From: Apostichopus japonicus
Taxonomy: Eukaryota; Echinodermata; Holothuroidea; Aspidochirotida; Stichopodidae
Direction of reading: 5' to 3'
NCBI RefSeq assembly: GCF_037975245.1
Contig: NC_092570.1
Coordinates: forward strand, 6,367,001-6,431,000
Length of the DNA: 64,000 bases
Shown: in pieces, positions 1-64,000 of the stretch
Numbering within the stretch: the first letter of the stretch is position 1
Layout of the letters: the number at the start of each line of letters is the position of its first letter
Notes under the pieces: model-generated
Told to the model about the DNA's origin: nothing
The model's database searches: none
What the model saw: only the letters and a program-made list of their open reading frames with translations
Program-made: the position numbers and the translations under genes

Positions 1-4369
<4,369 letters not shown>

Positions 4370-4866: not shown

Positions 4867-7432
4867 CTAATGAGGAGACCATGATCCCAGCATTGCTATC
4901 CTCGACAGCAGGAGATGGTGAAGGGGTACATCATCGACTGATCGACGGGCCTGTGCACAGAGAAAAAAAAGTTGTTTTTGCATTAATGTCCAGTTTTGAT
5001 TAGCAATTTTAAACCAATAACTGTAATATTGAGGTGCATACATCATCATTAAACAGTACACTGATTGTTGTTAGAAACCCACCTTTGAATGAGAGGGTGG
5101 ACAGAAGCTTGGAGGTTTAAACCAGAAGTCTGGGTCAGCAATACCTCTGGTATAGTTAGTGTATACGCCGCTATCACTGACTGGAGCTTTAAAAATAAAA
5201 AAAAACAGAATGGTCATTGTGTTGTGAAATAATATGAGAATACATTTTTGTGCCCCCTATTGACCCCCGGACTGCAAAGTACTCCCTTCCTCTTCTTTAC
5301 AAAAGTTTCTGGGAATTTCAAGAGGAAAAGGAATGTCTACATAAAATCTGTGCTAATAGTTACACCTCTACTGCTCACCATTTTATGTAAAGCTTTGCCC
5401 TAATTATTTTGGTTTCGGACAGTCTAAAGGAAGGTGTGCCACGAATATATCAGGGGTGACAAGAGTGACCTTACCAAACAAGGGGGCTCAACTCTCCCAT
5501 CGACCCCCCTTCCTTCTCCTTTTATGGTGGGTTTGAAACTTAGCAAACCAATTTGGTTTTTTCATATTCTGACCCAGAAAGAAAATTAGTGTTGGCCAAA
5601 TGTTAAAACTTTTCTACAATAGTCATTGAATGAATATGAATACATATCAGTGAAAATGAACTTTTTTAAGTGTTCTTCGTCAATTTTTTGTAAGAATTTC
5701 GTAATCATTTACACCCACCTAAGTTTGGAGGAGCTCCTACATACACCAAGGATGATTGGCCAATTGGAACGCAGCTCTTTACACTGAACGATAGATAATT
5801 GGTTCCGTATATACCATGCTTAGAATCGTTAATCGCTGCACCCCAAACTGCGCCCTCTAATTCTCCATCACCTATCGTAGAAGTATCCACAAAGTCATAA
5901 TCCGCTGACGACAAAATATGAGAATTTGAATATCAATTTATCAATAAAACAAAGGTTTGGCCTCTGACCATTTAAATTTCATTACTAAATATGCATAGTT
6001 TCAACCAACATGTGGCAATTAGAAACAACATTACAAATGAAATTAGTAATCTACTGCCTTTCATTCATGATGTCTCTTCTGGACCACCGTACAAACCACA
6101 TACCTTTTTAATATTAATAATATTCTCTGCTCATGAAATTTAGAATCAAATGGGAGAGGGGAATGAATACCAACGTGAATAAGGTATCTTTTATCATTAT
6201 TAATTTTAAGTTTTGTTGTAATGTAATGGTAGTGCAGAAAATGACTTACTTGTAATACAACGTTGCGGTTCCACGAATACATCTTGCAGTTTAGTACAGG
6301 TCCCATTGAATATATAATACTGTGTATTCTGGTCGAAAAAAGTATAATAAAAATAGAAAATGATTTAATAATTATATTGTGATTGAAAGAAGTTGCAGTT
6401 TAATCACGTGGTTCTTTTTATTATTTGTTTTGATCATAAAATCGATTTGACTGTTGTCTTCCAGGCACTGAATCTAAGTAGTTAACATTCATGTAACTAG
6501 CTTCAACAAAGCAAATGAGATCATTTTCACAGCCATGGACGTGCAGCCACTGGGACTGTTGGAAAGTAACCTAAAAGTAGCCTATTAGGTTACTAGTCCG
6601 GCATGTCGTGGGAAACAGTCAGTGGGAAAGGGCCAAGCAAGGACATTCTGTAATTCAGAAATCTTGCAAAACAAAATTATCGCCAAGAGTTGGCCTCCGA
6701 CAAATTTTGGCAAACTGACCTCTGCTGCTAAGATGATGATCCGAACTCTTATATCCGTACCATTGATGTAAGCGACGTCGCTAATGGAGCCATATCGACG
6801 GGCTGTGAAGTCGTAAGCGCCCCGGACCCGTTGTCGATAATATGAAGTACCGGTCACTACATTGGACCCTATATAAAGCAACAGATATGAAATGGTTGGT
6901 TATTATTCGTTATGAATGATGAAAGTGCGGCCTGCAGGCAGATCAACTGACGGAACTCGAAGAATGAACTGACAGACAAAACGTAGGGACCTACGAGTTG
7001 GCATCGATTTTCACATTTATCATATATGGGCAATATAATGTTGTTTAACCCTTGCAATTGGGCCACTGATACATGTATGGGGAGGGCAAGATTTGTATAC
7101 AGCATTCTGAGGACCATTGGGAATCGGCCTTTTTCCAATGAATGTTATGAAGTTGACAAAATGCAACTCAGTTAGGCTATATATCCATGGTATAGCGCTT
7201 TTGGGGGCGCTCTTCTTTAAGCACCGTATTCTTTCTAGCCCTAACGTGTTTAGTCTAGTTGCTCTTATTAATATTAGTTGCTGTTTTCCTACTTACCATA
7301 AGTCAGTTCCATTAGCTTTCCTGGCATACAACATCTGCCTGCATTGGCCTCGTTGCGAGGAGGAGGAGGAGGCTGACTGGATATCTTAACCAGCAATGCG
7401 TATAATACTGTCGCAAATAGTATTGATTTCAT
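4867..7432 (-). CDS. Ependymin-related secreted protein (minus-strand paralogue), complete
   Basis: Six coding exons read on the minus strand: 7432-7297, 6868-6720, 6328-6250, 5904-5719, 5186-5083, 4950-4867. Lengths of 136, 149, 79, 186, 104 and 84 nt give 245 residues. Donors are GTAAGT, GTCAGT, GTAAGT, GTGGGT and GTGGGT. The start MKSILFATVLYALLVKISSQ is a typical signal peptide. A proline run follows, then RCCMPGKL, the double-cysteine opening of the ependymin-related family. Later family hallmarks are FNGTCTKL and EPQRCIT (exon 3), SCVPIG (exon 4) and GIADPDFWFKPPSFC (exon 5), which matches the DP-x-x-F-x-x-P-x-x-C ending of the family. NGT and NYT are possible N-glycosylation sites. The last exon adds a separate tail starting ARRS. 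Exon phases, and the 79- and 104-nt exon sizes, equal those of the downstream array, so they share an ancestor. Substrate or partner is unknown; secreted or lysosomal location is inferred from the family. Confidence 0.88.
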
Positions 7433-9183
7433 CACGTCGATCTGTATAGTATATTAAGCATGTACTCTACAGTGAACGTTCTACGGTAAACAAATCCGAT
7501 GTGGTAAATGCACTCGCAAAATAAAATAGTTGTTGCTATGTCATACTACCAATAATTGTGCGATATTGTCGTTGATTCATAGATATAGAATTTTTTTATG
7601 GGAGAACGCTAACAATTATATAGCATTACCTCACTAACAATATATAGTTTAACCGCTCACCCCAAAAAAATCGAGGGCGCTGCAGACTTATATAAACTCA
7701 GATTACCGTTATTATCCATTGTTACAGAGAATTAGGCATCAAGCATAAATCGTAATTATTTATCTATGTTTATGGAATGTCTGTTCAAGAAAGGATTGTA
7801 TTAATATATCTGTCGACTTTATGCTGGCTAGTATTCAAGAAAACCTCCAAACTTTTCAGAAGATCCTATTTGTTTAAAGTTTACACAGCTTTCAGGAATT
7901 TCTAATTTGTGCGATCCTCAGACAACGACAAATGCATTTCGTTGTTTACGTTGTCAGTACGTACATGTACGAGTATTCAGTGGTTTCTGTTATCAGTAGC
8001 AGATGCAGATATAGCTTTAAACAGGAGGAGAGGTGACCTTGGGGTCATTGCCAAGGGTCGATCGTTGACCCATGGGTGTGTAGGGGGGTTCTTTTTTTCA
8101 TTGCCCCAAATTATTTGATTAAAAAAATGTTAATTCAAAAATAGTTTGGTACAGGAAAAGGGAAAAATCTAGTTTTCGACGACCTCGAATACTTTCCTCC
8201 TGTTGCCAATGATCGGCAACGTTAACGATATGATACTGTGGGATTTGCGTCAAGCCTTATCTGTAACTTAACCATTGCCTGCCCCCCCCCCCCCCGCCCG
8301 CACCATTTTGTCCTTACAGCTCCCATCCCCGCCCGCTTCAGCTCTCGGACCCTTCAGCTATATGTCAGTCTCTGCTATATTTCTATGGTGCACAATCAGA
8401 TAATCAATCGTTCACCTTTGTTCGGTTCGCATCATATGACTAAAGTCAATATTTACAAATTTATGAGTGTTAATTGTAACGTTACGGCCTACATAAATCA
8501 GTTTACACTTGAACTTGGCAAAAGTCTTGTCGGTGTAGCGGGTAAAACTACTGCAAAAACTCTGAACTTGAAGAGTCCTGCTTATAACCAGCGTGCATAG
8601 TTAGTTATCCACGCATGGACTTATTACTGATATTTTCCCTTCTATGAAGATTTATCAATTGGTTACATCAGGGTAATATGGAAGCTTCAATCGGAGAAGG
8701 GACAGTCTGAGGAGAGGGGAGGGGGAAGGGGTGAAGGATATATTTATTAAAAAATTATCAATTCACTGATTGAACTTAGAGGAAGGTGTTTAATAAGTCA
8801 GAATAACATGTACATACGGGCATCCTCCGCTAATTGGTCGTGGAACTTGACCCCTCGTATATCTCATAAAAGGAGCGCTATGAGATCTAGTAGTTATTAA
8901 TGTTTCATTCGCACGCCCCAGTGTTAAATAGATAGTATTTCTTAAGTCTAATCTCGTGTCAGATGTGACTTCTGTAAAAAATATAATTATGACTGATATA
9001 TCATTTCAGGGACCAAACAGTAGCAAAGTTGAAGATTTGTAGATGTAAGTCTGCCCCTGGAGTTTTATTGGCATTGGAAAAAAATTGAAAGGTTTCAAAA
9101 CAATCACTAGTTTTGGTTTAGGTGTCTTTATCGACGAATGACTTGTTTAGTTCGTTACTTTCTATAATTTATGTTATCTTTTA
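7433..9183. other. Intergenic region between divergent EPDR genes
   Basis: AT-rich spacer upstream of the minus-strand gene. It contains a C homopolymer near 8282-8295 and short ORFs with no recognisable domain. No RNA gene or clear transposon was found. Confidence 0.5.
7688..7695 (-). promoter_or_regulatory. Possible TATA box of the minus-strand EPDR gene
   Basis: TTATATAA lies 256 bp upstream of the minus-strand start codon. The motif is palindromic. The distance would need a long 5' UTR or a non-coding first exon, so this is weak. Confidence 0.3.
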
Positions 9184-10256
9184 CATACTATCTGTTCCCC
9201 TTTTACTTTCGATGCCTTCCACTACCTCACATCAAAGGCTGCGTAAGAGGACAACTGTTAATGGATGAGATGGCTGGGTAGGTGACAACACTATGATTCT
9301 ATCGCCCCGTCCGGCACCCTCTTACACGTATAAGGCAATGTATTAACAGACAAATCACACCCTCACATCATCCAACAAGCCTCCGCTGTAGACTATACGC
9401 CTGTGCTTCTATTTTGAAGTCGAAAGCACTGACAATTAAACGATTTTAATGATTATGTAAAATTAATGTCTTCATATTTGGGATATAACGTTAATACATG
9501 CACTTATATTTTGTAATGAATAGATAGGATGTCCTCTCTCAAAAGTAGCCGTGTAACCGGCAATAATTAGAATTAATTGTAATGTATGTATTCTGAAGAA
9601 AAAAGTCGTTTCATATGATACACTTACAATGACTTTGAAGCAACTGTTTTTCTTTGTTATAAACTTGTTTCAGCAGGGGTCCCTGATCAACTTTTACTAC
9701 GGTTCGCCATTTCCATAGTAGGATTCTTGGAGAAAATAAAAACAGCATGCGCTGTTTTTTTGGGGGGGGGTTGGAGGGGGTGGGGTAGGGGGTTGGAGGC
9801 AGAAGCCTTTCTTTCTCTCTCACTCTCTCTCTCTCTTTGATGGAGTAGGGTACTTTAATTAAATGTATTTGACAAATAACTTGACTACACTGCGACCTGA
9901 GTTATATACAGACAGTCGAAACAAACATAAATCAAACCCTTTGGCAAGAGTTTTTATGAAAAATATTTACTACATATTGTATAATCTATTGTAATAAAAA
10001 TGAGAATAAATTTACATTAAGAGGTTCTAAAGAGTTCGATAATTCACAGAAAAGTTACTTTCGCTTCCCCTTTTTCTTTTCTTTTTATGGTTTGGGGAGA
10101 GGTGGTGAAAATCTATTTCCCCTTCCACATTAAAAGAGAAACTTTATATATATACCTCAAAGTAACACTCAATTTCACATTTCATCATCATCAAAGCCCA
10201 CCAGCTGAATCGTGCAGAAGTGTTATCTAATTTGATCGACTTGGGGTGAATACGAA
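9184..10256 (+). repeat. A-type 5' flank, repeated before copies F, G and H
   Basis: This block, from CATACTATCTGTTCCCC to the start codon of copy A, recurs with few changes at about 47510-48603, 55130-56226 and 62750-63845. It contains a CT microsatellite (about 9810-9838), a G-rich tract on its left, and the TATA motif at its right end. Copies B to E carry a different distal 5' flank; only the last ~200 bp are shared by all copies. The block is therefore a promoter-flank type exchanged within the array. Confidence 0.8.
10143..10154 (+). promoter_or_regulatory. TATA box of copy A
   Basis: TTTATATATATA lies about 103-114 bp before the ATG. It keeps this place in all eight copies, followed by a conserved block with CATCATCATC repeats that is probably the 5' UTR. 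Confidence 0.6.
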
Positions 10257-13200
10257 ATGATATCGCAAAGCATGAAGTGTTTCTTGACTATCGTGTTGTT
10301 GTATATGGGCCAAGCAGCCTATGCTACCAAGGCAACACCTGATCGATGCTGCATCCAAGCTGAACAGTTTCAGGCTAGTTTTGGTGAGTTTTAATCTATA
10401 TCTTGTCGAAATAGATAAATATCCGAATCAATGTATTGACTCATCACAAAAGTTAGCAACGGTTTAGATAACCTAGTCTAGTGCTTATAATAGGGCGGAA
10501 ACCGTTGCTGTCATTGTTGAGACAATAAATTATGGTTGCTGGTGCATTAATGGATAAAGCGGGAAAACCAAGCTTTTAAAACTAATACTACTGAATGATT
10601 CATAGCGCACTATAGATAATCTATCAATGACCAATGGCAAATAAACGATCATTGTGATAATTTGATAATCTCTCCAGTATGAAAAAAGAAACTTGCATAG
10701 TCATATTTTAAACAAGCAGAACAGAAAATTTACAATATCTTTCAAAATAATTCATGAATTATGTCGACAAGCTACAGTCGTTCTCGATTCCAGTGGCAAA
10801 TAAATCATTGAGAAGAACGACAATGCCACCAATTGCCCTGCTGTGGCATTCGATAAACACCAACAACAAACCTTTACATCACGTGATCAGATTCGACCTC
10901 TGCAGGGCACAATTTAATGGACATACATGACACAGGAACTGGGCCTGCATTACACAGTATGCTGGGCCTCCAGAATAAAGCTTACTGGGCCTATAAGGCA
11001 CATTTTACTGGGCCTACAGGACACGTTATAATGGGCCTACAGGACACAGTAAACAGAGCCTACAGGACACAGCATACTGGGACTATTGGACATAGTATAC
11101 TGGGCGGACATGACACAGTATACTTGGCCTGCAGGGCACAAATTGCTGGGCCTAGGGACCCTGCTGGCCGTGACTCATGCAGCCATGGTCAGACACACAT
11201 GTGTATGCTTAAATTGTTCTTTCAGGTGTATTAAGAACATATCATCAGTACGAAGAAGGACTTTTTACTTGCGCCTTTGATTTCAAGAGTAACCAGTTTG
11301 GGTGTGATGTGGACTATGGCTCTCACCGATACAAAACATATCTACTGGTAGATAAGGTAAGGAAAAACGTATTATTTGATCGACAATAAAAATCTCATTC
11401 AACGAATATTGAAGAAACTTGCTGGTAGACTTCAGTTCCTCGGATTCGTATCTGTTTGCTTTTTTACGTTTGAGCTATTTGCTTGTTTCACCATGAAGGT
11501 TTTAAGTAGGTCAAATAGGTTTATTTTGATCCGGTTAATAAGTCATGCCTAAAACATAAAACAATATCGCTATTTTTACATAGACATTGTCAGAAGGGCT
11601 TTGAACATTCTCAATCTAATTGCACAAGACATGTAACCACATAAGTTTTTTCTTAACATTGCTACAGTTTTGTGTAAGTGATTGCTTGTTTTACAGTCCG
11701 CAATTCCTAACAATCTGTAACTTTAATCAAGCGACATGTTGTTTGTATTTCTTTCTTCGGATTTGTTTGATCGATATATCAGAAATTGCTATCAGTATCA
11801 ACTACCATTGCAGCGATATCTATACATTTTCTCCAATTAACTGAAATTTTGAATACATAAAACGTGTTCGATGCTTTCCTATAACTAGACTCTTTTGAAT
11901 TGAAATTTATTAATTTAAGAACAATCTTTTATCTTACTTCGGTTTTTATGTTTCCAACTGCAAATTGATTTAAATTCAGATGTTTTAACGTCTAAAAAAA
12001 TCGAACTAAGTTATCTGCAAACCAAACTAGAGAAATATTCCGAACAGAATCCATGCACTCTTCTGTACAGAGTCGGCGGAAAAGGTCAGGAACCCCTGGG
12101 GGTGGGGGGGGGGGGAATAAACGTCGGTGGGCACTGAGACTTGCGACTTTGCATTGAGGAAGCAAACCGCAACATCACCTCAAAACGCCCGGACCAAACG
12201 GAACCTTGGTAATTTCTTTACCTCAACTCATTTTTTGATATATTTTCAACAAAACAGCAGCCTTTCATTATTTCTTATTTAATTTCCAACAAAATACATT
12301 TTCTAATTATTTTTGCTTATTTTTCCGTTTGTAAACAATTTGGCACTTCTCCATTACAAAATGTGGCAAAAGTGTTTTCATTATCGCATGGGGCATTTAT
12401 AATTTATGGAAAAGGGACATTTTTGAGCTTTTTCACAAAACATTTTTGAGCTTTTTCACAAAACATGTGAAAACTCCTCTAACATCCCCCATCCCCAACC
12501 AAATGGGCTCGGCCGACCATGGTTCTGTCTAATCTTGCCTGTACAGTCTTCGTATTGTTTTCTATTGCATAACCAGGACGTTGAGTACATCGTTGAGGAG
12601 GATTCAACATGCTATAAACATGGGGCCGATCCGGCTCCTCTCCGATGTGTTCCAGGTAGGAATATTTATAATCTAGAAAGATGTTCCGCAAACTTGAGAT
12701 GCGGAAGCTTTCCAAACGTCCGAAATTTATCTATAGTTTGTAGTCAGCGGTCGTCGATATTAATTGACTTTTTGGGGAAAACAGATATAGTTCTAGGAGC
12801 TACATTCGCAAGTATGAAATGTAAACAACAACTTTTTGTCTAAAAATTCCTTCAAGTGGTCGTATTGCGTGTGAAATCGGTTTATTGGAACGTCCATTCG
12901 TTGTTTTCATGCAGTAAAGTTCCTAAACGTGGTACATCATGTGCATTATTATCCAAGCACGGATTCAGTGGGTGTGCCCCCCCCCCCCTTTTTCAACCCA
13001 ACCACACACAAAGCACAATATTGCGTGTAGACCTTGCGTGTGCACCATTTCACGTTTAGAATTGTATCCATTTCTTTGAGGGGGGCAGGGTAGGACCCTA
13101 ACATAGGGGAGTAGTTGGCTTGAACGAGCTCAGGACCATACCCCTTCCTTTGTTAAATCCTGTTATCCAGTATCGTCGGGCATGAGGTAAGTGTCTACAG

Positions 13201-14716
13201 GGACCCTTCGGTCAAGGGGCCAGGAAGGTCACGGAACCTTCGTGAACAACTTCAAGTTTCTGATTTCGTGTTGTGCATGCCAGGCAAACTTCATAGAGAG
13301 GGGAGAGGGCGGCGAGCAAGGAATGAAATGAAGTATGGCAAATCAAAGCCACAATTCGTTGCAAGTATACATAAATGTATGAAGAAGAAGCAATCCTGCC
13401 CTTCATTCTTGGAAGTAGCCTATAAGCTTGATTATGATATTATACAGGTGTTCTGTTTTCTACAAATAAAGAGGCGTGTGTGGTCATTTTCTCCCTCGCT
13501 GTTTATAGATACTTTAAACTACGTCACATCTTTCGCTCTCGGGAACCAAGCTTTACTCGTTGATTCATGGAAATTAAACAGCGATGGCGGGTATGTAACT
13601 ACCGGAAGAAAAGACTGCACACCTGTTTCTGTGACTTCCATAATAAAGGACTTTCAAGAAGGTTGGTTCTGCACCACTCTTAGTTTTTCGAGAAAAAAAG
13701 AAAGAAAGATTAATCATCCAAGGAAACAGGATCAAACGTCGGTTGTTGTTTGGTTTTCTAACAGCAAACCATTCTGGTGAACACGTTTTATTAACAACTA
13801 CTGTATTATGGACACAGGTTTAAAATTAAGAGAGGAAAAACAATATGAAGTTTACTAAAAAATATTATAACAGGTGCATATATAGTCTCCATCATATCAA
13901 ATTAGAGAGAGAATTAAACTCTCATCTCTTGTTTCCTGAAAGTTTACTGCATTCGGGATTTTACAAACGACGATACTAACCGGTCTCCAATCACTTTCTG
14001 CGTCTAACTAAATGATGGGAAACGTTTTTGCACTGTTCCCTCTACTTCAATTTTAATGGGTTAGATCTATTTACCCTAGCCTACCTTCTACGTTCCAAGT
14101 CACGTGGTTGAGGGAAATGAGAATGTACATATGTTAATGGAGACAGGTATGAGAGGAACGAGGTTCAACCTACTATACACTGTTACAGTATTTCTCTACC
14201 GCTCTACTACTGTTACTGTAATCTACTATACCTCTGTTACTGTTATATAAATCATTCGTGATAATAATATGTAAGCAACGCAAACAAGTTGAATGAAGTT
14301 CATGATTTTTTTCAAATTTCTCTAACAGGGTTTTCCACAATTATTGTAACAGTCATGAATTTTACCGACTCTGTCAGTGATCCAGACTATTGGTTTGTAC
14401 CTCCAGCGTCATGCTCTAATGCGACTCAACAGGTAAGTCATCTTATGAAATTTGGAGCCAATATCAAAGTAGTATCCACCAGACCACCCCTCCCACGGCC
14501 CCCCCCCCCCCCTCGAAAAAGTCTTCACTCGTCAAAGTCAGCCTAATATCGTGTAAAAATGCTTGTAACTAAAGCATTTTTGTTTTGTTTTTTATTTGAA
14601 GTTACACTTTTTATTTGAAATGTTTTGTTCTCTTCTCGTCTCTATAGGTACCAAAACCATTTCTCAAACGACTGAATGTCTTGAAACGGCTGCGGGCAGC
14701 TACCTTCTTCCTGTAA
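10257..14716 (+). CDS. Ependymin-related secreted protein, array copy A
   Basis: Six coding exons: 10257-10383, 11226-11356, 12577-12655, 13509-13661, 14329-14432, 14648-14716 (663 nt, 220 aa). The start MISQSMKCFLTIVLLYMGQ is a signal peptide. DRCCIQAEQF is the family's double-Cys opening. Exon 2 carries TCAFDFKSNQFGCDVDY; exon 3 STCYKHGADPAPLRCVP; exon 4 ALGNQALLVDSW and GRKDCTPVS; exon 5 NFTDSVSDPDYWFVPPASC, the family's terminal signature, with NFT and NAT glycosylation sites. Exon 6 gives the basic tail VPKPFLKRLNVLKRLRAATF. The start is the first ATG, in the same place in all copies. Relative to its sisters it lacks one codon in exon 2 and four or five in exon 4, all in frame, so it reads as intact. 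ATTAAA at 14808-14813 may be the poly(A) signal. A role as an extracellular glycoprotein is family inference. Confidence 0.88.
10901..11160 (+). repeat. 23-bp minisatellite, intron 1 of copy A
   Basis: About eleven degenerate units of roughly 23 bp built on GGGCCTACAGGACACAGTA. The array ends about 65 bp before exon 2. All seven complete copies carry it in the same place, so it predates the array's expansion. Confidence 0.9.
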
Positions 14717-16658
14717 AAGACAACGAATTCTCATATCAACTTTGATTCGTTGAATCATTTATATCGTAGCTATTTTAGAGCGCAAAAAGAAAAAGAAAAA
14801 AAAAGCGATTAAAGTAAAGTTAAGTTTGATTATTCTAGTTTTTCTTCCCGCTAACCGTTGGTGTATTTTCATGTTTTTAGAAACATTTGATGATTTCACT
14901 TTCTAGTTTTGACATTCATTTTACAGATAACTCGAATACTTTGTTTTATATACTTTTTTAAATAGAAGAACGTAAAAGTGTTTGCACAACATCCCTTCCC
15001 GCTCCCTCCTGATCATCAACCTTTCTGGGGGGAAAATCCTGAATAGTCCCATAAAAATTGATTTTCTCTTTGAAAGCTATAGTGTAACTAACCTCCTCTT
15101 CCTTATCTGGGCATGTCCAGTGCTCTCGATCTTAAATTACGTTGAAAGTGATTCAAAGTAAGTCTTTAAATAATAATGAACTTTGATTCCTGACGATATG
15201 ATTTCATTTTCACATTGCTTTCGATTTCTATTAAAGTAATGTATTCCTTTATCAATGGCTTACTCTTTCGATATACACGTTTTGCTTTTTTTCTTTTGGT
15301 TTCTATAGTTTTACTCGTGACTTTTAACCAACAGCTTTTCTTTGTGTGACGACCAGATGAATGATATCTATCCAAGAAATATTGCCTACTTCGCTCATGC
15401 CAAGTTTACTTTATAATTCCGCTGATTTGGTCGAATAAGAAAGTGTCTCATAATACAAAATGGATGTTTCCTTGTTTTCGTTAATGCTTGTGATTAGAAA
15501 AGATTACAATCTGACATTTCTTTCGATATCTTAAATGTATTGTCTTTCTTATAGTTATGGCTTACACTTTTCGTATATTCGTTTTTCTTTTTTCGGTTTC
15601 CTTATAATCTTACTCTTGATTTTAACCTATATCCTTTCTGTGTGTGAGTTCAGACACGAATGTTATAGTTTTCCAAATTCAGATGATTCAAATAAGTCTC
15701 TGATGAATCGTGTTCAACGTTTTATAACATTATGAATCTAAACTATAGCGCTCGTTATGACACATTCTCACTAGAACTGAGTGGCACAATATCCCATCAA
15801 GAAAGCTGTTCCAAAACAACACTCATCTAGGTATAGATATTAGACGTATATAAGAGTAAACAAGTACAGAAAAGTTCATGTAAACACAACGTCACTTATA
15901 GATCCTGATGGTTTTCTGCATAAAAGTTACCAAATACTAAAGTTCACAATAAAATTTACCAAGGTTACGAAATCTTCCGTCTCTTCTGTTATTTTATTTT
16001 AATGTTTTTGAATCGTATTTTTTATTTAAGGTCGACTAAATAAAATACCCATGCGTACACGACGTTAAACCACAGATTTTTTTACAGAAATTGCTCATTA
16101 AGAAGCCTAACATACAGCACGACAAAAGTCGTTGTACCCTCCAAGCAAATGACGATGAAGATTAAATGTTTGTGATAAATGATATGCATCCTGTTTGAGT
16201 TGATGTAGCCTTTGTCAAGGCCTATCGGCCAATTTTTCTTTGCCAAATGCGCTGGGACGATTTTTACTATTCATCACGCCATGAGCGATTCGTCGTGTGA
16301 TTGCGCCGGCCTCTACGCCTTGGACAAGTGCTGTTATTCATACACACATGAATAAACAAACCTAGCATGGTGAATGGCGTAACATAAGAAAAAACGATGA
16401 CAAATGAGAATGAATTTATATTTATATGAAATGCAAGAGTTGAGAATTCCATGAAAAGTTATTTCGCTTTCGTTTTCTTTTTCTTTATTTTTTGGGTTGG
16501 GGGGAGGTGACGAAAATCCATTTCCCCATCCACATTACAAGAGAAACTATATATATACATCAAAGTATCATTCAATATCACATTTCATCATCATCAAACC
16601 CACAAGCTGAACCGTGCAGCAGTGTTATCTAGTTTGATCGACTTGGGGTGAGTACGAA
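14717..16658 (+). other. Spacer between copies A and B
   Basis: AT-rich 3' flank with an A-rich purine tract just after the stop, then about 1.3 kb that is repeated after every copy. At about 16090-16460 lies the B-type 5' flank (ATTGCTCATTAAGAAGCC to about 200 bp before the ATG), also seen before C, D and E and, truncated, before F and G. No gene was recognised. Confidence 0.6.
16548..16557 (+). promoter_or_regulatory. TATA box of copy B
   Basis: TATATATATA lies about 102-111 bp before the ATG. Same place as in copy A. Confidence 0.6.
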
Positions 16659-17300
16659 ATGATATCGCAAAGCATGAAGTGTTTCTTGACTATCGTGTTG
16701 TTATATGTGGTCCAAGCAGCCTATGCTACCAAGGCAACACCTGATCGATGCTGCATCCAAGCTGAACAGTTTCAGACGAGCTTTGGTGAGTTTTAATCTA
16801 TATCTTGTCAAAATAGATAAAAATCCGAATCAATATATTGACCTATCACGAAGTTATAGCAACGGTATAGATAACCTAGTGTAGTACTTTACATGTACGG
16901 ATCGAGCGGAAGCTGTTGCTGTCATTAACTGTTGAGACAATAATTTATGGTTGCTGGTGCATTAAGGGATCAAGCTGGAAAACCAAGATTTTAAAACTAA
17001 TATTACTGAATGATTCATAGCGCACGATAGATAATCTATCAATGACCAATGGCAAATAAACGATCATTGTGATAATGTGATAATCTGCCCAGTATGAAAA
17101 GAGAAACTTGCATATTCATGAAAAATTTACAATATCTTTCAAATACTTCATGAATTATGTCGACAGGCTATAGTCGTTCTCGATTCCAGTGGCAAATAAA
17201 TCATTGAGATGAACGACAATGCCACCAATTGCTCTGCAGTGGCATTCGAAAAACGTCAAAACACAAAACAAACCTTTACATCACATGATCAGATTCGGCT

Positions 17301-17675
17301 TCTACAGGGCACATTATAATGGGCCCACAGGACACAATATACTGGGCCCAAAGGACTCAGGATACTGGATTTGCAGGACTATTATAATGGGCCTGAAGGA
17401 CTCAGTATACAGAGCCTGCAGGACACTGTATACTGGACCTACCGGACACAGCATACTTGGCTTAGGACACAGTATACTGGGCCTACAGGACACATTATGA
17501 TGGGCCCACATGACACAGTATACTGGGCATATAGGACACTGTGTACAGCGCCTACAGGGAACAGTATAAATGGCCTACAGGACACAGTAAACTGGGCCTC
17601 CAGGATACAGCATACTGGGCCAACATGACACAGTTCACTTAGCCTGCAGGGCGCAGATTGCTGGGCCTACGGACC
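17301..17675 (+). repeat. 23-bp minisatellite, intron 1 of copy B
   Basis: Degenerate GGGCCTACAGGACACAGTA units, about 16 in number, ending about 65 bp before exon 2. Some units have AAGGACTCAGGAT variants also present in C, D and E but not in A, F or G. Confidence 0.9.
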
Positions 17676-18724: not shown

Positions 18725-18738
18725 AGTACTCTCATCAT

Positions 18739-53483: not shown

Positions 53484-56226
53484 AAGACAACGAATTCTGA
53501 TATCAACTTTGATTCGTTGAATCATTTATATCGTAGCTATTTTAGAGCGCAAAAAGAAAAAGAAAAAAAAGCGATTAAAGTAAAGTTAAGTTTGATTATT
53601 CTAGTTTTTCTTCCCGCTAACCGTTGGTGAATTTTCATGTTTTTAGAAACATTTGATGATTTCACTTTCCAGTTTTGACATTCATTTTACAGATAACTCG
53701 AATACTTTGTTTTATATACTTTTTTAAATAGAAGAACGTAAAAGTGTTTGCACAACATCCCTTCCCGCTCCCTCCTGATCATCAAACTTTCTGGGGGGAA
53801 ATCCTGAATAGTCCCATAAAAATTGATTTTCTCTTTGAAAGCTATAGTGTAACTAACCTCCTCTTCCTTATCTGGGCATGTCCAGTGCTCTCGATCTTAA
53901 ATTACGTTGAAAGTGATTCAAAGTAAGTCTTTAAATAATAATTAACTTTGATTCCTGACGATATGATTTCATTTTCACATTGCTTTCGATTTCTATTAAA
54001 GTAATGTATTCCTTTATCAATGGCTTACTCTTTCGATATACACGTTTTGCTTTTTTCTTTTGGTTTCTATAGTTTTACTCGTGACTTTTAACCAACAGCT
54101 TTTCTTTGTGTGACGACCAGATGAATGATATCTATCCAAGAAATATTGCCTACTTCGCTCATGCCAAGTTTACTTTATAATTTCGCTGATTTGGTCGAAT
54201 AAGAAAGTGTCTCATAATACAAAATGGATGTTTCCTTGTTTTCGTTAATGCTTGTGATTAGAAAAGATCATACAATCTGACATTTCTTTCGATATCTTAA
54301 ATGTATTGTCTTTCTCATATTTATGGCTTCCACTTTTCATATATTCGTTTTTCTTTTTTTCGGTTTCCTTATAATCTTACTCTTGATTTTAACCTATATC
54401 CTTTCTGTGTGTGAGTTCAGACATGAATGATAGTTTTCCATATTCAGATGATTCAAATAAGTCTCTGATGAATCGTATTCAACGTTGTATAACATCATGA
54501 ATCTAAACTATAGCCTTCATTATGACACATTCTCACTAGAACTGAGTGGCACAATATCCCCTCAAGAAAGCTGTTCCAAAACAACACTCATCTAGGTATA
54601 GATATTAGACGTATATAGGAGTAAACACGTACAGAAAAGTTCATGTAAACACAACGTCACTTATAGATCCTGATGGTTTTCTGCATAAAAGTTACCAAAT
54701 ACTAAAGTTCACAATAAAATTTACCAAGGTTACGAAATCTTCCGTCTCTTCTGTTATTTTATGTTAATGTTTTTTAATCGTATTTTTTAGTTAAGGTCCA
54801 CTAAATAAAATACCCATGCGTACACGACGTTAAACCACAATTTTTTTTTTACAGAAATTGCTCATTAAGAAGCCTAACATACAGCACGACAAAAGTCGTT
54901 GTACCCTCCAAGCAAATGACGATGAAGATTAAATGTTTGTGATAAATGATATGCATCCGGTTTGAGTTGATGTAGCCTTTGTTAAGGCCTATCGGCCAAT
55001 TTTTCTTTGCCAAATGCGCTGGGACGATTTTTACTATATTCATCACGCCATGAGCGATTCGTCGAGTGAGTGCGCCGGCCTCTACGCCTTTGGACAAGTG
55101 CTGTTATTCATACACACATGAATAAACAAACATACTATCTGTTCCCCTTTTATTTTCGATGCCTTCCACTACCTCACATCAAAGGCTGCGTAAGAGGAAA
55201 CTGTTAATGGATGAGATGGCTGGGTAGGTGACAACACTATGATTCTATCGCCCCGTCCGGCACCCTCTTACACGTATAAGGCAATGTATTAACAGACAAA
55301 TCACACCCTCACATCATCCAACAAGCCTCCGCTGTAGACTATACGCCTGTGCTTCTTTTTGAAGTCGAAAGCACTGACAATTAAAAGATTTTAATGATTA
55401 TGTAAACTTAATGTCTTCATATTGGGGATATAACGTTAATACATGCACTTCTATTTTGTAAAGAATAGATAGGCTGTTCTCTCTCAAAAGTAGCCGTGTA
55501 ACCGGCAATAATTAGAATTAATTGTAATAGTTGTATTCTTGAGGGAAAAAAAAGTCGTTTCATATGATAAATTTACAATGACTTGAAAACAATTGTTGTT
55601 CTTTGTTATAAACTTGTTTCAGCAGGGGTCCCTGATCAACTTTTACTACGGTTCGCCATTTCCATAGTAGGATTCTTGGAGAGGGGTTTTGTATAAAAAC
55701 AGCATGCGCTGTTTTTTTGTTTTTTTTGGGGGGGGGGGGTAATTTGGAGGGGGTGGGGTGGGGGTTAGAGGCAGAAGCCTTTCTTTCTCTCTTACTCTCT
55801 CTCTCTCTCTCTCTTTGATGGAGTAGTGTACTTGAATGTATTTGACAAATAACTTGACTACACTGCGACCTGAGTTATATACAGACAGTCGAAACGAACA
55901 TAAATCGAACCCTTTGGCAAGACTTTTTATGAACAATATTTACTACATATTGTATTATCTATTGTAATAAAAATGAGAATAAATTTACATTAAAAGGTTC
56001 TAAAGAGTAGATAATTCACAGAAAAGTTCCTTTCGCTTCCCCTTTTTCTTTTCTTTTTATGGTTTGGGGAGAGGTGGTGAAAATCTATTTCCCCTTTCCA
56101 CATTACAAGAGAAACTTTATATATACATCAAAGTAGCACTCAATTTCACATTTCATCATCATCAAACCCACCAGCTTAATCGTGCAGAAGTGTTATCTAA
56201 TTTGATCGACTTGGGGTGAATACGAA
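53484..56226 (+). other. Spacer between copies F and G
   Basis: The first 450 bp match the copy A 3' flank closely. Then comes the common 3' flank, a truncated B-type 5' flank (to about 55130), and the A-type 5' flank with CT microsatellite. No gene was recognised. Confidence 0.65.
56116..56125 (+). promoter_or_regulatory. TATA box of copy G
   Basis: TTTATATATA lies about 102-111 bp before the ATG. Confidence 0.6.
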
Positions 56227-59200
56227 ATGATATCGCAAAGCATGAAGTGTTTCTTGACTATCGTGGTGTTATATATGGGCCAAGCAGCCTATGCTACCAA
56301 GGCAACACCTGATCGATGCTGCATCCAAGCTGAACAGTTTCAGACTAGCTTTGGTGAGTTTTAATCTATATCTTGTCAAATAGATAGAAATCCGAATCAA
56401 TATATTGACCTATCCCAAAAGTTATAGCAACAGTATAGATAACCTAGTCTAGTACTTTACATATACGGATCGGGCGGAAGCTGTTTCTGTCAATAAATGT
56501 TTAGACAATAATCTAAGGCTGCTGGTGCATTAATGGATTAAGCGGTAAAAAACGAGCTTTTAAACTAATATTACTGACTTATTCATAGCGCACGATAGAT
56601 AATCTTCAATGACCAATGGCAAATTAACGATCATTGTGATAATGTGATAATCTCTCCAGTATGAAAAAGAAACTTGCATAGTCATATCATAAACAAGCAG
56701 AACAGAAAATTTACAATATCTTTCAAAATACTTCATGAATTATGTCGACAAGCTACAGTCGTTCTCGATTCCAGTGGCAAATAAATCATTGAGAAGAACC
56801 ACAATGCCACCAATTGCCCTGCTGTGGCATTCGATAAACACCAACAACAAACCTTGATATCACGTGATCAGATTCGACTTCTGCAGGGCACAGTTTAATG
56901 GACCTACATGACACAGGAACTGGGCCTGCATTACACAGTATGCTGTGCCTGCAGGACACAGCTTACTGGGCCTATATGGCACATTTTACCGGGCCTACAG
57001 GACACGTTATAATGGGCCTACAGGACACGTTAAACAGAGCCTACATTACACAGCATACTCGGCCTATTGGACACAGTATACTGGGCGGACATGACACAGT
57101 ATACTTGGCCTACAGGACACAGCTTACTGGGCCTATATGGCACATTTTACTGGGCCTACAGGACACGCTATAATGGGCCTACAGGACACAGTAAACAGAG
57201 CCTACAGGACTGCAGCATACTGGGCCTATTGGACACAGTATACTGGGCGGACATGACACAGTATAATTGGCCTGCAGGGCACAAATTGCTAGGCCTACGG
57301 GCCCTGCTGGCAGTGAATCATGCAGCCATGGTCAGACACATGTGTATGCTTAAATTTTTCTTTCAGGTGTATTAAAAACATCATATGATCAGTACGAAGA
57401 AGTACTTCTTACTTGCGCCTTTGATTTCAAGAGTAACCAGTTTGGGTGTGATGTGGACTATGATTCTTACCGAATCAAAACATATCTGCTGGTAGATAAG
57501 GTAAGGAGAAACTTTTATTTATTTGATCGACCAGAAAAATCTCATTCAATTAACATTGAAGAAACTTGCTGGTAAACTCCAGTTCCTCGGATTCGTATCT
57601 GTTTGCTTGTTTACGTTTGAGCTACTTTCTTTTTTTTTCATCATGAAGGTTTTAAGTAGGTCAAATACGTTTACTTTGATCCGGTTAATAAGTCATGCCT
57701 GAAACATATTTTATTTTTACATAGACAGTTTCAGAAGGGCTTTACACATTCTCAACTTATTTGCACGAGACATGTAACCACAAAAGGTTTTTCTTTACAT
57801 CGTTAAGAGTTGTTGCGGCCACGTCAAGTTCATTTGTATTTCAGTTATATTTGCTTCTTCTTACCCTTACCATTTTAATAATATTCAGTAGTCTGCTTTA
57901 GGGGAAATTTTTTTGCTAACCTGTATGCTTCCCGTGCTTCCCTGGAAGGGGAGGTGATACTGATAACATATTCTGAAATTTCGATAAAAAATAATCATAG
58001 AAAGGAACACAAATCAACATGTCGCTCGATTAAAAAAAACAGATGTTTTCGGAATTGCTAACAGTAAAACAACCAAGTACTTTATACGATTTTGTTTTCA
58101 TTATGGCATGGGACATTTATCATTTATGGAAAGGGACACATTTTTGCTTATCCCCACCCAATCGCTTCGGCCGACCCTGGTTCTGTCTAATCCTGCCTGT
58201 ACAGTGTCCGTATTGTTTTCTATTGCATAACCAGGACGTTGAGTACATCGTCAGTGAGGATTCAACATGCCTTGTACTGTCGGCCGATCCAGCTCCTCTC
58301 CGATGTGTTCCAGGTAGGAATATTCATAATTTAGAAAGATGGTCTGCAAACTTGTGATGAGGAAGTTTTCCGGACGTCCGAAATTTATCTATAGTTTTCG
58401 GCGGTCGTCGACTATTACTTGAGTTTTCTAGGAAAACAGATATAGATCTAGATATAGCTACATTCGCAAGTATGAAATGTTAACAACAACTTTTTGTCTA
58501 AAATCTCCTCCAACTGGTCATGGTATCGTTTGTTGTATACGATTAAGTGGAACGTTCATTCGTTGTTTTCATGCAGTAAAGTTCCTACACGTGGTACATC
58601 AGTGGAGTGCATTATTATCCAAGCATGGATTCACGGGGTGTGCCCCCCCCCCCCTTTCAACCCAAATACACACAAATCACAATCTTGCGTGTAGACCTTG
58701 CGTGTGCAACATTTCACGTTTAGAATTGTCTCCATTTCTTTGAGGGGGGGGGGGAGCAAGGTGGAACCCTTACATAGGGGAATAGTTGGTTTCAAAGAGC
58801 TCAGGGCCATACCCCTTTCTTTGTTAAATTCTGTTATCCAGTACATCGGATGAAGTAAGTGTCTACAGGGACTCTAAGGTCAAGGACTCAAGGGGGCCAG
58901 GAAGGTCACGGAGCCCTTGTGATCAATTCCAAGCTTCTGATTTCGTGTTGTGCATGCCAGGCAAACTTCATAGGGAGGGGAGGAGGCGGCGAGCAAGGAA
59001 TGGAATGAAGTATGGCAAATCAAAGCCCCAATTGGTTGCTTTCATGCAGTAAAGTTCCTACACGTGGTACATCGGTGGAGTGCCCCCTTTTCCAACCCAA
59101 ATACAACCCAAATAATATGTATGAAGAAGAAAAAACCCTGCCCTTTATTCTTGGAAGTAGCCTATAAGCCTGATTATGATATAATACAGGTGTCCTGTTT

Positions 59201-61103
59201 TTTACAAATAAAGAAGCGTGTGTGGTCATTTTCTCCCTCGCTGTCTATAGACACTTTAAACTACGTCACATCTTTCGCTCTCGGGAACCAAGCTTTACTC
59301 GTTGATACATGGACATTCAACAGCTATGACGGGAATGTGGCGTATGTAACCACCGGAAGAAAAGACTGCACACCTGTTTCTATGGCAACCATTACAAGAG
59401 AGGAAGGCTATCAAGAAGGTGGGTTCTGCACTACTTTTAGTTTTTCGAGAAAAAAAGAAAGATTAATCATCCAAGGAAACAGGATCAAACGTCGGTTGTT
59501 GTTTGGTTTTCGAACAGTAGACCATTCTGGTGATAAAGTAGGCTACTGTATGGAGTGCCGATTGTTTCAAAACATAACCAAACTGAAATCAACATGTCCA
59601 AACTGAAATCGACATATTCAAACTGAAATCAACATGTACAAACTGAAATCGACATGTCTATATTGATGTCGGTATATCCATAGTTATGTCGGTATGTTCT
59701 TGCCGAAATTGAATTCATCATGTCCAAACTGGTATCAATATACCGAATATAAAATTGACGTATTGAAACTGAAATCAATATAGCCAAAACAAGAACGCAT
59801 AACTCAAAATGTCATCACGTTCACTGTTAGCTTTAAGTTCTGTTTTGATTCACTTGGCAAATTTACAGGTGCGCCGAATATGTCAAAACAACGAAACTGA
59901 CGTCAATATTTCCAAATGAGATAACGCTATGTCCAAATAAGATATTATAGGGAGGGCTGCCGGTTGCCATAGCATTTTGCGCTCAAGTCCTTAATTAAAG
60001 TTGCATCGCACTTTTACACACGGTACGATAAGGTAGGCTTCCCAGTGGGTGGGATTTGTAATATAACCAGCAACTGGATAGCAAGTAGTAATAGTTTAGG
60101 ACGTATTGATTTCACTTTGAACATGTCGAAAATGTCGATTTCAGTTTGGACATTTCGATTTCAGTTTCGACATGTCTATTTCAGTTGGACAATTCGATTT
60201 CAGTTTTGAAACAATTGGCACTCCATACTATTGAAAAACAATATAAACTTTCTAAAACAATTATAACATGTGCATGTATAGTCCCATCGTATCAAATGAG
60301 AGCGAGAAAAAACTCTCATCTCTTGTTTCCTGAAAGTTTACTGAATTCGGGATTTTACGAATGACGATACTAACCTGTCTCCAATCACTTTCTGCGTCCA
60401 ACTACATGATGGGAAACGTTTTTGCACTGTTCCCTCTATTTCACTTTTACTGGTCTAGATCTATCTACATTTAGCCTGGCTTCTACATTCCCAGTCACGT
60501 GGTTGAGGGAAATGAGAACGTGTATAATTGAGACAGGTATGAGAGGAACGAAGTTTAATCTACTACACACTGTTACTGTAGCACTCTACCGCTCTACGTG
60601 CTACTGTTACTGTAATCTACTATACTCTGTTACTGTTATGTAAATCATTCGTGAAAATAATATGTAAGCAACGCAAACAAGTTGAATGAAGTTCATGATT
60701 TCTTCAAATTTCTAACAGGGTTTTCCACAAGTTATGGAACAGCCATGAATTTTACCGACTCTGTCAGTGATCCAGACTATTGGTTTGTACCTCCAGCGTC
60801 ATGCTCTAATGCGACTCAACAGGTAAGTCATCTTAGGAAATTTGGAGCCAATATCAAAGTAGTATCCACCAGACCACCCCTCCCACGCCCCCCCCCCCCT
60901 CGAAAAAGTCTTCACTCGTCAAAGTCAGCCTAATATCGTGTAAAAATGCTTGTAACTAAAGCATTTTTGTTTTGTTTTTTATTTGAAGTTACACTTTTTA
61001 TTTGAAATGTTTTGTTCTCTTCTCGTCTCTATAGGTACCAAAACCATTTCTCAAACGACTGAATGTCTTGAAACGGCTGCGGGCAGCTACCTTCTTCCTG
61101 TAA
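56227..61103 (+). CDS. Ependymin-related secreted protein, array copy G
   Basis: Six coding exons: 56227-56353, 57367-57500, 58235-58313, 59251-59418, 60719-60822, 61035-61103 (681 nt, 226 aa). By eye I found no coding difference from copy F, so both should make the same protein, with the same SEDSTCLVLSADPAP and EEVLLTC variants. Splice sites are intact. The identity of introns and spacers as well shows that this is a recent duplication of the whole 7.62-kb unit, or an assembly duplicate, rather than selection on the protein. ATTAAA is at 61194-61199. Confidence 0.85.
56879..57304 (+). repeat. 23-bp minisatellite, intron 1 of copy G
   Basis: Near-identical to the array in copy F, including its internal higher-order duplication. 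Confidence 0.9.
59549..60227. mobile_element. Short inverted-repeat element in intron 4 of copy G
   Basis: Same ends and length as the element in copy F; it was duplicated with the unit, not inserted anew. Confidence 0.8.
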
Positions 61104-63845
61104 AAGACAACGAATTCTGATATCAACTTTGATTCGTTGAATCATTTATATCGTAGCTATTTTAGAGCGCAAAAAGAAAAAGAAAAAAAAGCGATTAAAG
61201 TAAAGTTAAGTTTGATTATTCTAGTTTTTCTTCCCGCTAACCGTTGGTGAATTTTCATGTTTTTAGAAACATTTGATGATTTCACTTTCCAGTTTTGACA
61301 TTCATTTTACAGATAACTCGAATACTTTGTTTTATATACTTTTTTAAATAGAAGAACGTAAAAGTGTTTGCACAACATCCCTTCCCGCTCCCTCCTGATC
61401 ATCAAACTTTCTGGGGGGAAATCCTGAATAGTCCCATAAAAATTGATTTTCTCTTTGAAAGCTATAGTGTAACTAACCTCCTCTTCCTTATCTGGGCATG
61501 TCCAGTGCTCTCGATCTTAAATTACGTTGAAAGTGATTCAAAGTAAGTCTTTAAATAATAATTAACTTTGATTCCTGACGATATGATTTCATTTTCACAT
61601 TGCTTTCGATTTCTATTAAAGTAATGTATTCCTTTATCAATGGCTTACTCTTTCGATATACACGTTTTGCTTTTTTCTTTTGGTTTCTATAGTTTTACTC
61701 GTGACTTTTAACCAACAGCTTTTCTTTGTGTGACGACCAGATGAATGATATCTATCCAAGAAATATTGCCTACTTCGCTCATGCCAAGTTTACTTTATAA
61801 TTTCGCTGATTTGGTCGAATAAGAAAGTGTCTCATAATACAAAATGGATGTTTCCTTGTTTTCGTTAATGCTTGTGATTAGAAAAGATCATACAATCTGA
61901 CATTTCTTTCGATATCTTAAATGTATTGTCTTTCTCATATTTATGGCTTCCACTTTTCATATATTCGTTTTTCTTTTTTTCGGTTTCCTTATAATCTTAC
62001 TCTTGATTTTAACCTATATCCTTTCTGTGTGTGAGTTCAGACATGAATGATAGTTTTCCATATTCAGATGATTCAAATAAGTCTCTGATGAATCGTATTC
62101 AACGTTGTATAACATCATGAATCTAAACTATAGCCTTCATTATGACACATTCTCACTAGAACTGAGTGGCACAATATCCCCTCAAGAAAGCTGTTCCAAA
62201 ACAACACTCATCTAGGTATAGATATTAGACGTATATAGGAGTAAACACGTACAGAAAAGTTCATGTAAACACAACGTCACTTATAGATCCTGATGGTTTT
62301 CTGCATAAAAGTTACCAAATACTAAAGTTCACAATAAAATTTACCAAGGTTACGAAATCTTCCGTCTCTTCTGTTATTTTATGTTAATGTTTTTTAATCG
62401 TATTTTTTAGTTAAGGTCCACTAAATAAAATACCCATGCGTACACGACGTTAAACCACAATTTTTTTTTTACAGAAATTGCTCATTAAGAAGCCTAACAT
62501 ACAGCACGACAAAAGTCGTTGTACCCTCCAAGCAAATGACGATGAAGATTAAATGTTTGTGATAAATGATATGCATCCGGTTTGAGTTGATGTAGCCTTT
62601 GTTAAGGCCTATCGGCCAATTTTTCTTTGCCAAATGCGCTGGGACGATTTTTACTATATTCATCACGCCATGAGCGATTCGTCGAGTGAGTGCGCCGGCC
62701 TCTACGCCTTTGGACAAGTGCTGTTATTCATACACACATGAATAAACAAACATACTATCTGTTCCCCTTTTATTTTCGATGCCTTCCACTACCTCACATC
62801 AAAGGCTGCGTAAGAGGAAACTGTTAATGGATGAGATGGCTGGGTAGGTGACAACACTATGATTCTATCGCCCCGTCCGGCACCCTCTTACACGTATAAG
62901 GCAATGTATTAACAGACAAATCACACCCTCACATCATCCAACAAGCCTCCGCTGTAGACTATACGCCTGTGCTTCTTTTTGAAGTCGAAAGCACTGACAA
63001 TTAAAAGATTTTAATGATTATGTAAACTTAATGTCTTCATATTGGGGATATAACGTTAATACATGCACTTCTATTTTGTAAAGAATAGATAGGCTGTTCT
63101 CTCTCAAAAGTAGCCGTGTAACCGGCAATAATTAGAATTAATTGTAATAGTTGTATTCTTGAGGGAAAAAAAAGTCGTTTCATATGATAAATTTACAATG
63201 ACTTGAAAACAATTGTTGTTCTTTGTTATAAACTTGTTTCAGCAGGGGTCCCTGATCAACTTTTACTACGGTTCGCCATTTCCATAGTAGGATTCTTGGA
63301 GAGGGGTTTTGTATAAAAACAGCATGCGCTGTTTTTTTGTTTTTTTTGGGGGGGGGGGTAATTTGGAGGGGGTGGGGTGGGGGTTAGAGGCAGAAGCCTT
63401 TCTTTCTCTCTTACTCTCTCTCTCTCTCTCTCTTTGATGGAGTAGTGTACTTGAATGTATTTGACAAATAACTTGACTACACTGCGACCTGAGTTATATA
63501 CAGACAGTCGAAACGAACATAAATCGAACCCTTTGGCAAGACTTTTTATGAACAATATTTACTACATATTGTATTATCTATTGTAATAAAAATGAGAATA
63601 AATTTACATTAAAAGGTTCTAAAGAGTAGATAATTCACAGAAAAGTTCCTTTCGCTTCCCCTTTTTCTTTTCTTTTTATGGTTTGGGGAGAGGTGGTGAA
63701 AATCTATTTCCCCTTTCCACATTACAAGAGAAACTTTATATATACATCAAAGTAGCACTCAATTTCACATTTCATCATCATCAAACCCACCAGCTTAATC
63801 GTGCAGAAGTGTTATCTAATTTGATCGACTTGGGGTGAATACGAA
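61104..63845 (+). other. Spacer between copies G and H
   Basis: Near-identical to the F-G spacer, with the same flank switch at about 62750 and the same microsatellite. No gene was recognised. Confidence 0.65.
63735..63744 (+). promoter_or_regulatory. TATA box of copy H
   Basis: TTTATATATA lies about 102-111 bp before the ATG. Confidence 0.6.
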
Positions 63846-64000
63846 ATGATATCGCAAAGCATGAAGTGTTTCTTGACTATCGTGGTGTTATATATGGGCC
63901 AAGCAGCCTATGCTACCAAGGCAACACCTGATCGATGCTGCATCCAAGCTGAACAGTTTCAGACTAGCTTTGGTGAGTTTTAATCTATATCTTGTCAAAT
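63846..64000 (+). CDS. Ependymin-related secreted protein, array copy H, exon 1 only
   Basis: Exon 1 is 63846-63972 (127 nt, donor GTGAGT), with the signal peptide MISQSMKCFLTIVVLYMGQ and the DRCCIQAEQF motif, same as F and G. The remaining exons lie past the window end, so whether the copy is whole cannot be judged. Confidence 0.8.

Follow-up and report, generated by a model that had tools for sequence, protein, structure and literature searches.

A recently expanded tandem array of ependymin-related genes in the sea cucumber Apostichopus japonicus, with putative carriers of hydrophobic ligands as products

What does an animal gain, if anything, from a row of similar genes for probably secreted proteins, some intact, some decaying and some nearly identical to their neighbours? 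The question is raised by a 64,000-nucleotide (nt) stretch of the genome of the sea cucumber Apostichopus japonicus (NCBI RefSeq assembly GCF_037975245.1, contig NC_092570.1, positions 6,367,001 to 6,431,000 of the forward strand), hereafter the window, which holds one gene for an ependymin-related protein (EPDR) on the minus strand and a head-to-tail array of EPDR genes on the plus strand. We read the locus as a recently expanded tandem array encoding secreted carriers of hydrophobic ligands, lying beside a diverged relative on the opposite strand, and place the probability of this reading at about 0.55. It starts from the gene structure, the family match, the cysteine pattern and the mixture of intact and broken copies, all of which are visible in the window.

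Gene structure and family identity

Gene models were built by hand from translated frames and then spread by BLAST, all being read from the DNA sequence alone. On the plus strand there are seven instances of every exon from 2 to 6 and eight of exon 1, giving seven complete exon sets and one lone exon 1. An earlier note on this DNA had described nine EPDR genes, eight of them in one array; the minus-strand gene and the head-to-tail arrangement stand, and the count of eight full plus-strand copies is rejected in favour of seven sets and exon 1 of an eighth. Copy 1 (10257-14716; exons 10257-10383, 11226-11356, 12577-12655, 13509-13661, 14329-14432, 14648-14716) is intact and encodes 220 amino acids. 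Also intact are copy 3 (24443-29020; exons 24443-24569, 25520-25653, 26841-26916, 27820-27987, 28644-28747, 28952-29020; 225 amino acids), copy 6 (48604-53483; exons 48604-48730, 49744-49877, 50612-50690, 51627-51794, 53095-53198, 53415-53483; 226 amino acids) and copy 7 (56227-61103; exons 56227-56353, 57367-57500, 58235-58313, 59251-59418, 60719-60822, 61035-61103; 226 amino acids), the last two encoding an identical protein. Copy 8 is represented by exon 1 (63846-63972), its remainder lying past the end of the window. The minus-strand gene (7432-4867; exons 7432-7297, 6868-6720, 6328-6250, 5904-5719, 5186-5083, 4950-4867, of 136, 149, 79, 186, 104 and 84 nt) is intact and encodes 245 amino acids, its stop codon ending at 4867.

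The exons of the array measure 127 (126 in copy 5), 131-137, 76-79, 153-168, 104 and 69 nt. All introns of the seven sets start with GT and all acceptors are AG except that of exon 3 in copy 2; in the minus gene five of five introns are GT-AG. Junction phases of 1,0,1,1,0 are common to the minus gene and the array, provided that in copy 5 a one-base loss from exon 1 is disregarded; both also carry CC in exon 1 and, in exon 5, a motif of the DPDYWFVPPASC type. The six-exon structure claimed previously holds, with the reservations that 'eight copies' overcounts and that three sets are broken as assembled. At a protein identity of 23%, the minus gene and copy 1 still have as many exons as each other and the same phases, and neither exon 3 nor exon 5 differs in length between them. 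Because this match persists at such low identity, and because gaps between copies keep the frame within exons (among copies 1-6, seven of eight distinct exon gap intervals have a length divisible by three, compared with 11 of 72 from introns 1, 3 and 5; Fisher p 7e-5), the gene structure goes beyond chance.

The spliced proteins of the minus gene and of copies 1, 3 and 6 were compared with the Pfam Ependymin profile (PF00811, gathering score 32.3 bits), the check on the joined exons that had been proposed for this locus, and all four match. Copy 6 passes the gathering score (E 2.7e-8, 34.5 bits), copy 1 falls just under it (E 1.4e-7, 32.1 bits), and copy 3 (E 7.1e-7, 29.9 bits) and the minus protein (E 3.7e-6, 27.5 bits) lie below. 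Unspliced translated frames of 8001-16400 (plus strand) and 1-9000 (minus strand) gave no Ependymin match because the exons are short, and NCBIfam returned nothing relevant. Scans of genome contigs and viral contigs found no relative, and none from prokaryotes or viruses was confirmed.

The cysteine pattern adds to the support for an ependymin-related identity. EPDRs are defined by a signal peptide and three cysteines kept in all profiles, at alignment positions 23, 94 and 186 (PMC6280359), which are present as Cys 31, 98 and 192 in copy 1 and as 34, 106 and 212 in the minus gene. Clade 2 (profile 2) has further cysteines at 24, 107 and 148 and a proline at 150 (PMC6280359). All six cysteines are found in copies 1, 3 and 6 and in the minus gene (34, 35, 106, 119, 166 and 212), where the profile-2 elements comprise the CC, a pair in exon 3 spaced by 12 residues in copies 1, 3 and 6 and by 13 in the minus gene, KDCTP or KSCVP with their CTP or CVP, and PPASC or PPSFC. 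Profile 1 (clade 1, MERP) is without the second CC cysteine and has none at 107; the array has both. Going by the cysteine pattern alone, the array EPDRs would fit clade 2. In exon 2 copies 1, 3 and 6 have two more cysteines, residues 58 and 69 of copy 1, which are missing from the minus gene and, to judge by their spacing, may form a hairpin disulfide.

The N-termini bear hydrophobic stretches of secretion type (Kyte-Doolittle (KD) mean 2.3-2.9 over 11 residues), in support of the secreted nature that had been attributed to the products, and N-glycosylation motifs number two in each of copies 1, 3 and 6 and four in the minus protein. Hallmarks drawn by Suarez-Castillo (2007) from a dataset without clade 2 include an Asp about 29 residues after the first Cys, preceded by Phe in echinoderms, and a Trp 11-14 residues after a common Gly (PMC1805737). 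Copy 1 has F60 D61, 30 residues after C31, a weak fit to the echinoderm remark, and the minus gene has Y before the D; W133 of copy 1 follows G124 by 9 residues, outside the range of 11-14. A basic tail that hardly varies and includes two KR pairs is encoded by exon 6 (14648-14716 and its equivalents); it reads VPKPFLKRLNVLKRLRAATFFL in copy 1, and in copy 3 an E replaces the K of the first KR. A cationic amphipathic C-terminal helix was considered for this tail and rejected, as its hydrophobic moments of 0.083 and 0.171 are reached by 94% and 85% of shuffles.

Decay, exchange and constraint among the copies

Four of the seven full sets (copies 1, 3, 6 and 7) are intact as assembled and three (copies 2, 4 and 5) are broken. 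Copy 2 (16659-22516; exons 16659-16785, 17739-17872, 20371-20449, 21306-21470, 22136-22239, 22448-22516) is likely broken: its frame is open when the exons are joined, but TG instead of AG precedes exon 3, where it reads tgctg and the other six copies accag, and the open stretch upstream of exon 3 contains no phase-compatible (in-frame) AG acceptor. Copy 4 (30958-35543; exons 30958-31084, 32043-32176, 33364-33442, 34339-34506, 35157-35260, 35475-35543) has a premature TAG in exon 1 and no other stop. In copy 5 (38076-45866; exons 38076-38201, 39076-39212, 40421-40499, 41353-41514, 45488-45591, 45798-45866) an exon 1 of 126 instead of 127 nt shifts the frame, and exons 2-6 are open in the expected frame. 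These three copies may be real pseudogenes or assembly errors.

Taken at face value, such decay would suit a duplication hot spot of little functional meaning, in which repeats breed copies by unequal crossing over, most copies degenerate and the loops of the protein vary through relaxed constraint. We consider this unlikely, although it survives better than the other alternatives. Exchange between copies is one of the things it would lead us to expect. Trees of three segments of the seven copies, in which the forks named here carry starred support, place copy 1 with 6 and 7, and 5 with 2, 3 and 4, in the 5' segment; 3 with 4, 6 with 7, and 1 with 2 and 5 in intron 3; and 1 with 6 and 7, and 2 with 3 and 5, in the 3' segment. 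Well-supported trees that conflict in this way imply gene conversion or crossover inside genes, and the segments of the copies are of mosaic ancestry. Furthermore, a 23-bp minisatellite (CTACAGGACACAGTATACTGGGC) lies in intron 1 of all seven full copies (10903-11154, 17302-17674, 25086-25455, 31603-31975, 38735-39015, 49261-49660 and 56884-57283), where it may favour misalignment.

The hot-spot explanation is also helped by the ratio of replacement to silent change (pN/pS), for which minimum changes were counted over six distinct sequences, broken copies included. The 33 silent and 91 replacement changes give 0.79 overall, 1.27 in exon 3 and 0.82 in exon 4, none of them significant, and diversifying selection as a general claim is accordingly unsupported. 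What a mere hot spot accounts for poorly is the preserved coding character of the copies: seven of the eight exon gap intervals keep the frame, copy 4 has acquired no further stop, exons 2-6 of copy 5 remain open, and exon 5 shows a mean divergence of 3.2% against 12.5% in its 150-bp flanks (0.032 vs 0.125). The corresponding values are 6.6 vs 8.0% for exon 2, 11.4 vs 21.4% for exon 3, whose flank value is high because of copy 2, and 12.1 vs 13.7% for exon 4. Flanks in the 3' part are themselves little diverged (0.038 in the last 120 bp of intron 4 and 0.051 in the first 60 bp past the stop), so that selection need not account for all of the conservation seen in exons 5 and 6.

The youth of the array, also claimed by the earlier note, is supported. 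At the 3' end of the window a near-identical plus-strand repeat with a period of about 7.62 kb occupies 47000-64000, and over 9.4 kb a comparison of its two matching parts, 47000-56381 and 54610-64000, yields 8 substitutions besides a few short indels. Wherever the comparison is possible, copies 6 to 8 are almost the same. In their introns copies 1-5 differ from the nearest copy by 0.5-20%. The near-identity of copies 6-8 points to a duplication or conversion event of very recent date, unless the assembly produced it artificially. That a single locus was assembled several times over as copies 6, 7 and 8, or that these represent two haplotypes, is improbable: it would agree with the match of 50287-56381 to 57910-64000, which have no substitution and three short indels between them, but not with 47842-50286 and 55462-57909, which hold all 8 substitutions and several indels, and since copies 1-5 differ from their nearest copies as they do, the array as such is independent of copies 6-8.

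Other repeats lie in the introns of individual copies. A 72-bp minisatellite with TACCGCGGTA-like palindromes occupies 19664-20311 in intron 2 of copy 2 and ends 60 bp before the acceptor-less exon 3. At a similar place in intron 4, copies 5, 6 and 7 carry an insert (41660-44862, about 51930-52610 and about 59550-60230) whose inverted ends are like AGTGCCAATTGTTTCAAAAC and whose 20-bp repeats, of the CCAAACTGAAATCGACATGT type, point inward; its form recalls a short inverted-repeat transposon. In copy 5, where intron 4 extends to 3973 bp and holds inserted elements, the insert is longer and includes 42333-43851 with inverted ends like CAGSGACGTAGCCAGG; Pfam detected no transposase domain in it. 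Neither Rfam, at gathering score, nor a search for tRNA gave a match.

Variable positions and the rim of the EPDR1 groove

The array proteins were aligned with human, mouse and frog EPDR1 by MAFFT in three modes, and the 28 residue numbers compared with the text of the structure papers agree with the numbering used here. Array cysteines align with human C113, C172 and C210 in all three modes, and the KDC.PV and DP...PP.SC motifs match, a likeness to EPDR1/MERP (PDB 6E7O, 6JLD, 6JLA, 6JL9). Unlike EPDR1, the array has the N-terminal CC, a cysteine at position 126 and no cysteine after the PPASC one. Position 126, with which the second exon-3 cysteine aligns, is the site of one of the two cysteines gained in clade 2 according to Wei et al. 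(PMC6363788); human C42 is paired by MAFFT with the second C of the CC, one residue off the published 42/43 (PMC6363788).

Replacements and in-frame gaps among the copies cluster at codon-alignment columns 46-58, 95-106, 134-147 and 157-171 (residue numbers in copy 6 are one lower after column 48), which align near human residues 54-66, 106-120, 150-165 and 175-184. With loop limits, in human numbering, of 55-66 for L2, 118-131 for L7, 152-164 for L9 and 182-185 for L11, the replacement-variable columns of copies 1-6 are concentrated in the four loops (27 of 46 vs 29 of 123 elsewhere, 22 of 42 vs 34 of 127, and 29 of 50 vs 27 of 119 in the three alignments; Fisher p 4e-5, 0.004 and 1.5e-5). 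Columns with silent variation show no enrichment in the same loops (p 0.80, 0.80 and 0.62). L7 as a variable lid found no support, with 5 of 14 columns against 51 of 155 elsewhere (p 1) and, for intact copies, 2 of 14 against 40 of 155. At most, the alignments suggest a crowding of replacement differences at positions aligned with the L2, L9 and L11 hairpins on the rim of the EPDR1 groove, a fragile pattern that depends on the alignment and on the loops and copies counted; omission of the broken copies weakens it, as the hot-spot explanation would have it.

The most conspicuous single difference is in exon 4. Across 60 exon-versus-flank tests, exon 4 clearly exceeds its 150-bp flanks in one of 15 pairs, copies 3 and 4 (16 of 168 vs 5 of 299, p 2e-4), and every other p below 0.05 reflects an exon less divergent than its flanks. 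At 34398-34430 copy 4, itself broken, differs from copy 3 at 11 of 24 bases over eight neighbouring codons, with six residues changed; the window contains no donor of the copy 4 loop sequence at six or fewer mismatches. An extended version of the carrier reading would make the array a repertoire with a variable rim, whereby gene conversion and purifying selection keep the scaffold uniform, L2, L9 and L11 diversify from one copy to the next, partly in bursts of clustered replacements of the kind seen between copies 3 and 4 in exon 4, the products serve a single animal as carriers for different hydrophobic molecules and the array is still growing. We regard this extended version as a long shot.

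Carriers, signals and known EPDR clusters

On the carrier reading itself, the product of each intact gene would be a glycoprotein with a signal peptide, adopting the LolA-like beta-clam fold known from EPDR1, probably dimeric and binding a lipid or another hydrophobic molecule. The dose would rise, and segments would be exchanged among the copies, through unequal crossing over and gene conversion; changes in the loops may adjust what the protein binds or contacts. The mouse major urinary protein array may work in a like manner: it is young and homogenised, encodes secreted carriers of hydrophobic ligands in tandem and has pseudogenes scattered among its genes. Its products are lipocalins with an unrelated fold, and the comparison extends no further. 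Within the family, EPDR structures point first to hydrophobic-ligand binding (PMC6363788, PMC6608618), and EPDR1 has been shown in vitro to bind both fatty acids and anionic lipids (PMC6608618, PMC6363788). A sponge EPDR, the ependymin-related blue carotenoprotein, binds carotenoids (PMC10470211); by analogy the array proteins may hold a hydrophobic ligand too, but the sponge protein belongs to clade 1, with profile 1.

A number of observations count against the carrier reading. Three of the four proteins lie under the Pfam gathering score, and EPDR1 was not recovered by PDB searches, phmmer included, in which copy 1, the minus protein or a profile of the two served as query; their matches to MS2 coat protein and others (E 0.001-0.85) are taken as chance. 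The near-identity of copies 6-8 could be an assembly artefact. In no exon does pN/pS differ significantly from 1, so that relaxed constraint explains the pattern no worse than adaptation does. Of the six copies entering the loop test three are broken; with intact copies only (1, 3 and 6) the enrichment falls to p 0.001, 0.15 and 0.002. Once L12, likewise part of the rim, is included, p becomes 0.011, 0.17 and 0.007 over copies 1-6, and 0.095, 1 and 0.099 when the count is confined to intact copies. Out of 168 circular shifts, 5, 8 and 5 reach the observed overlap if copies 1-6 are counted, and 5, 41 and 5 do so if intact copies are. L7, the sole loop with printed limits, is not enriched, and the limits of L2, L9 and L11 were chosen from residues named in the text after the patches had been seen. 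Loops also vary more than strands in most proteins, which limits the loop result further, and together with the post hoc limits leaves only a hint on L2, L9 and L11. Finally, the ligands of the sponge EPDR sit in the dimer interface, not in the groove (PMC10470211).

A different function is conceivable, namely that the array proteins are themselves secreted signals between cells or animals and that ligand binding is secondary. In crown-of-thorns starfish 15 of 26 EPDRs were detected in water-borne plumes (PMC6363788), and six whose expression differs between ovary and testis are called strong candidate signalling factors (PMC9759900). The large asteroid expansions belong to clade 2 (PMC6280359), which makes the crown-of-thorns comparison drawn in the earlier note an apt one, and the secretion-type N-termini of the array proteins would serve a signal equally. 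However, the portions of this signalling literature used here name no receptor, and we give the proposal only a small share of our belief. The parallel with gut regeneration, invoked in the same note, is less apt. The 2007 study came from the group reporting a sea cucumber regeneration gene (PMC1805737), and its echinoderm sequences sat in the MERP group of a dataset without clade 2 (PMC1805737, PMC6280359); the cited link belongs to another EPDR branch.

Among described systems, the EPDRs of Acanthaster planci and other clade-2 members (McDougall 2018, PMC6280359) resemble the array proteins in their signal peptide, a length of about 213 amino acids and the same six-cysteine profile 2. Genomic clusters of duplicated genes and expansions in echinoderms are likewise described there, with clustered duplicates in A. 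planci, B. belcheri and A. queenslandica (PMC6280359). The array differs from what that source describes in the extra exon 2 cysteine pair of copies 1, 3 and 6, in two copies encoding identical proteins and in adjoining NALCN. The mormyrid epdl2 paralogs are also tandem EPDR duplicates, and their post-duplication changes map to the lid and lining of the pocket and to the dimer surface (PMC9997568); there, in fish, codon models detected positive selection, whereas here we find only a fragile clustering of replacements.

The NALCN neighbour named in the earlier note is borne out by collinear pieces of its 3' coding region on the plus strand at 6-2941 (residues ~1423-1586). Three are strong (~873-989, residues ~1443-1481; ~2118-2285, residues ~1482-1537; ~2783-2941, residues ~1534-1586) and one is weak (6-68, residues 1423-1443, 5.3 bits). 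As the 3' end of NALCN lies on the plus strand and the adjacent EPDR gene on the minus strand, the two stand tail to tail. NALCN is an adjoining gene outside the array that might anchor comparisons of synteny for EPDR genes; a look through one literature library turned up no published NALCN-EPDR neighbourhood, and McDougall et al. found no EPDR synteny across the species in their comparison (PMC6280359).

Tandem EPDR clusters (PMC6280359) and selection at pocket and dimer sites after epdl2 duplication (PMC9997568) are known already, and the present array is a young, well-resolved added example of a known phenomenon. EPDR expansions recur across animals, and the reason why the copies are retained is described as unexplained by McDougall et al. 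(PMC6280359). An array with intact, decaying and near-identical units allows duplication, conversion and loop divergence to be watched directly. Should further genomes show the rim-loop pattern as well, expansion would be tied to the choice of ligand, and the carrier hypothesis would become testable through binding assays on natural variants.

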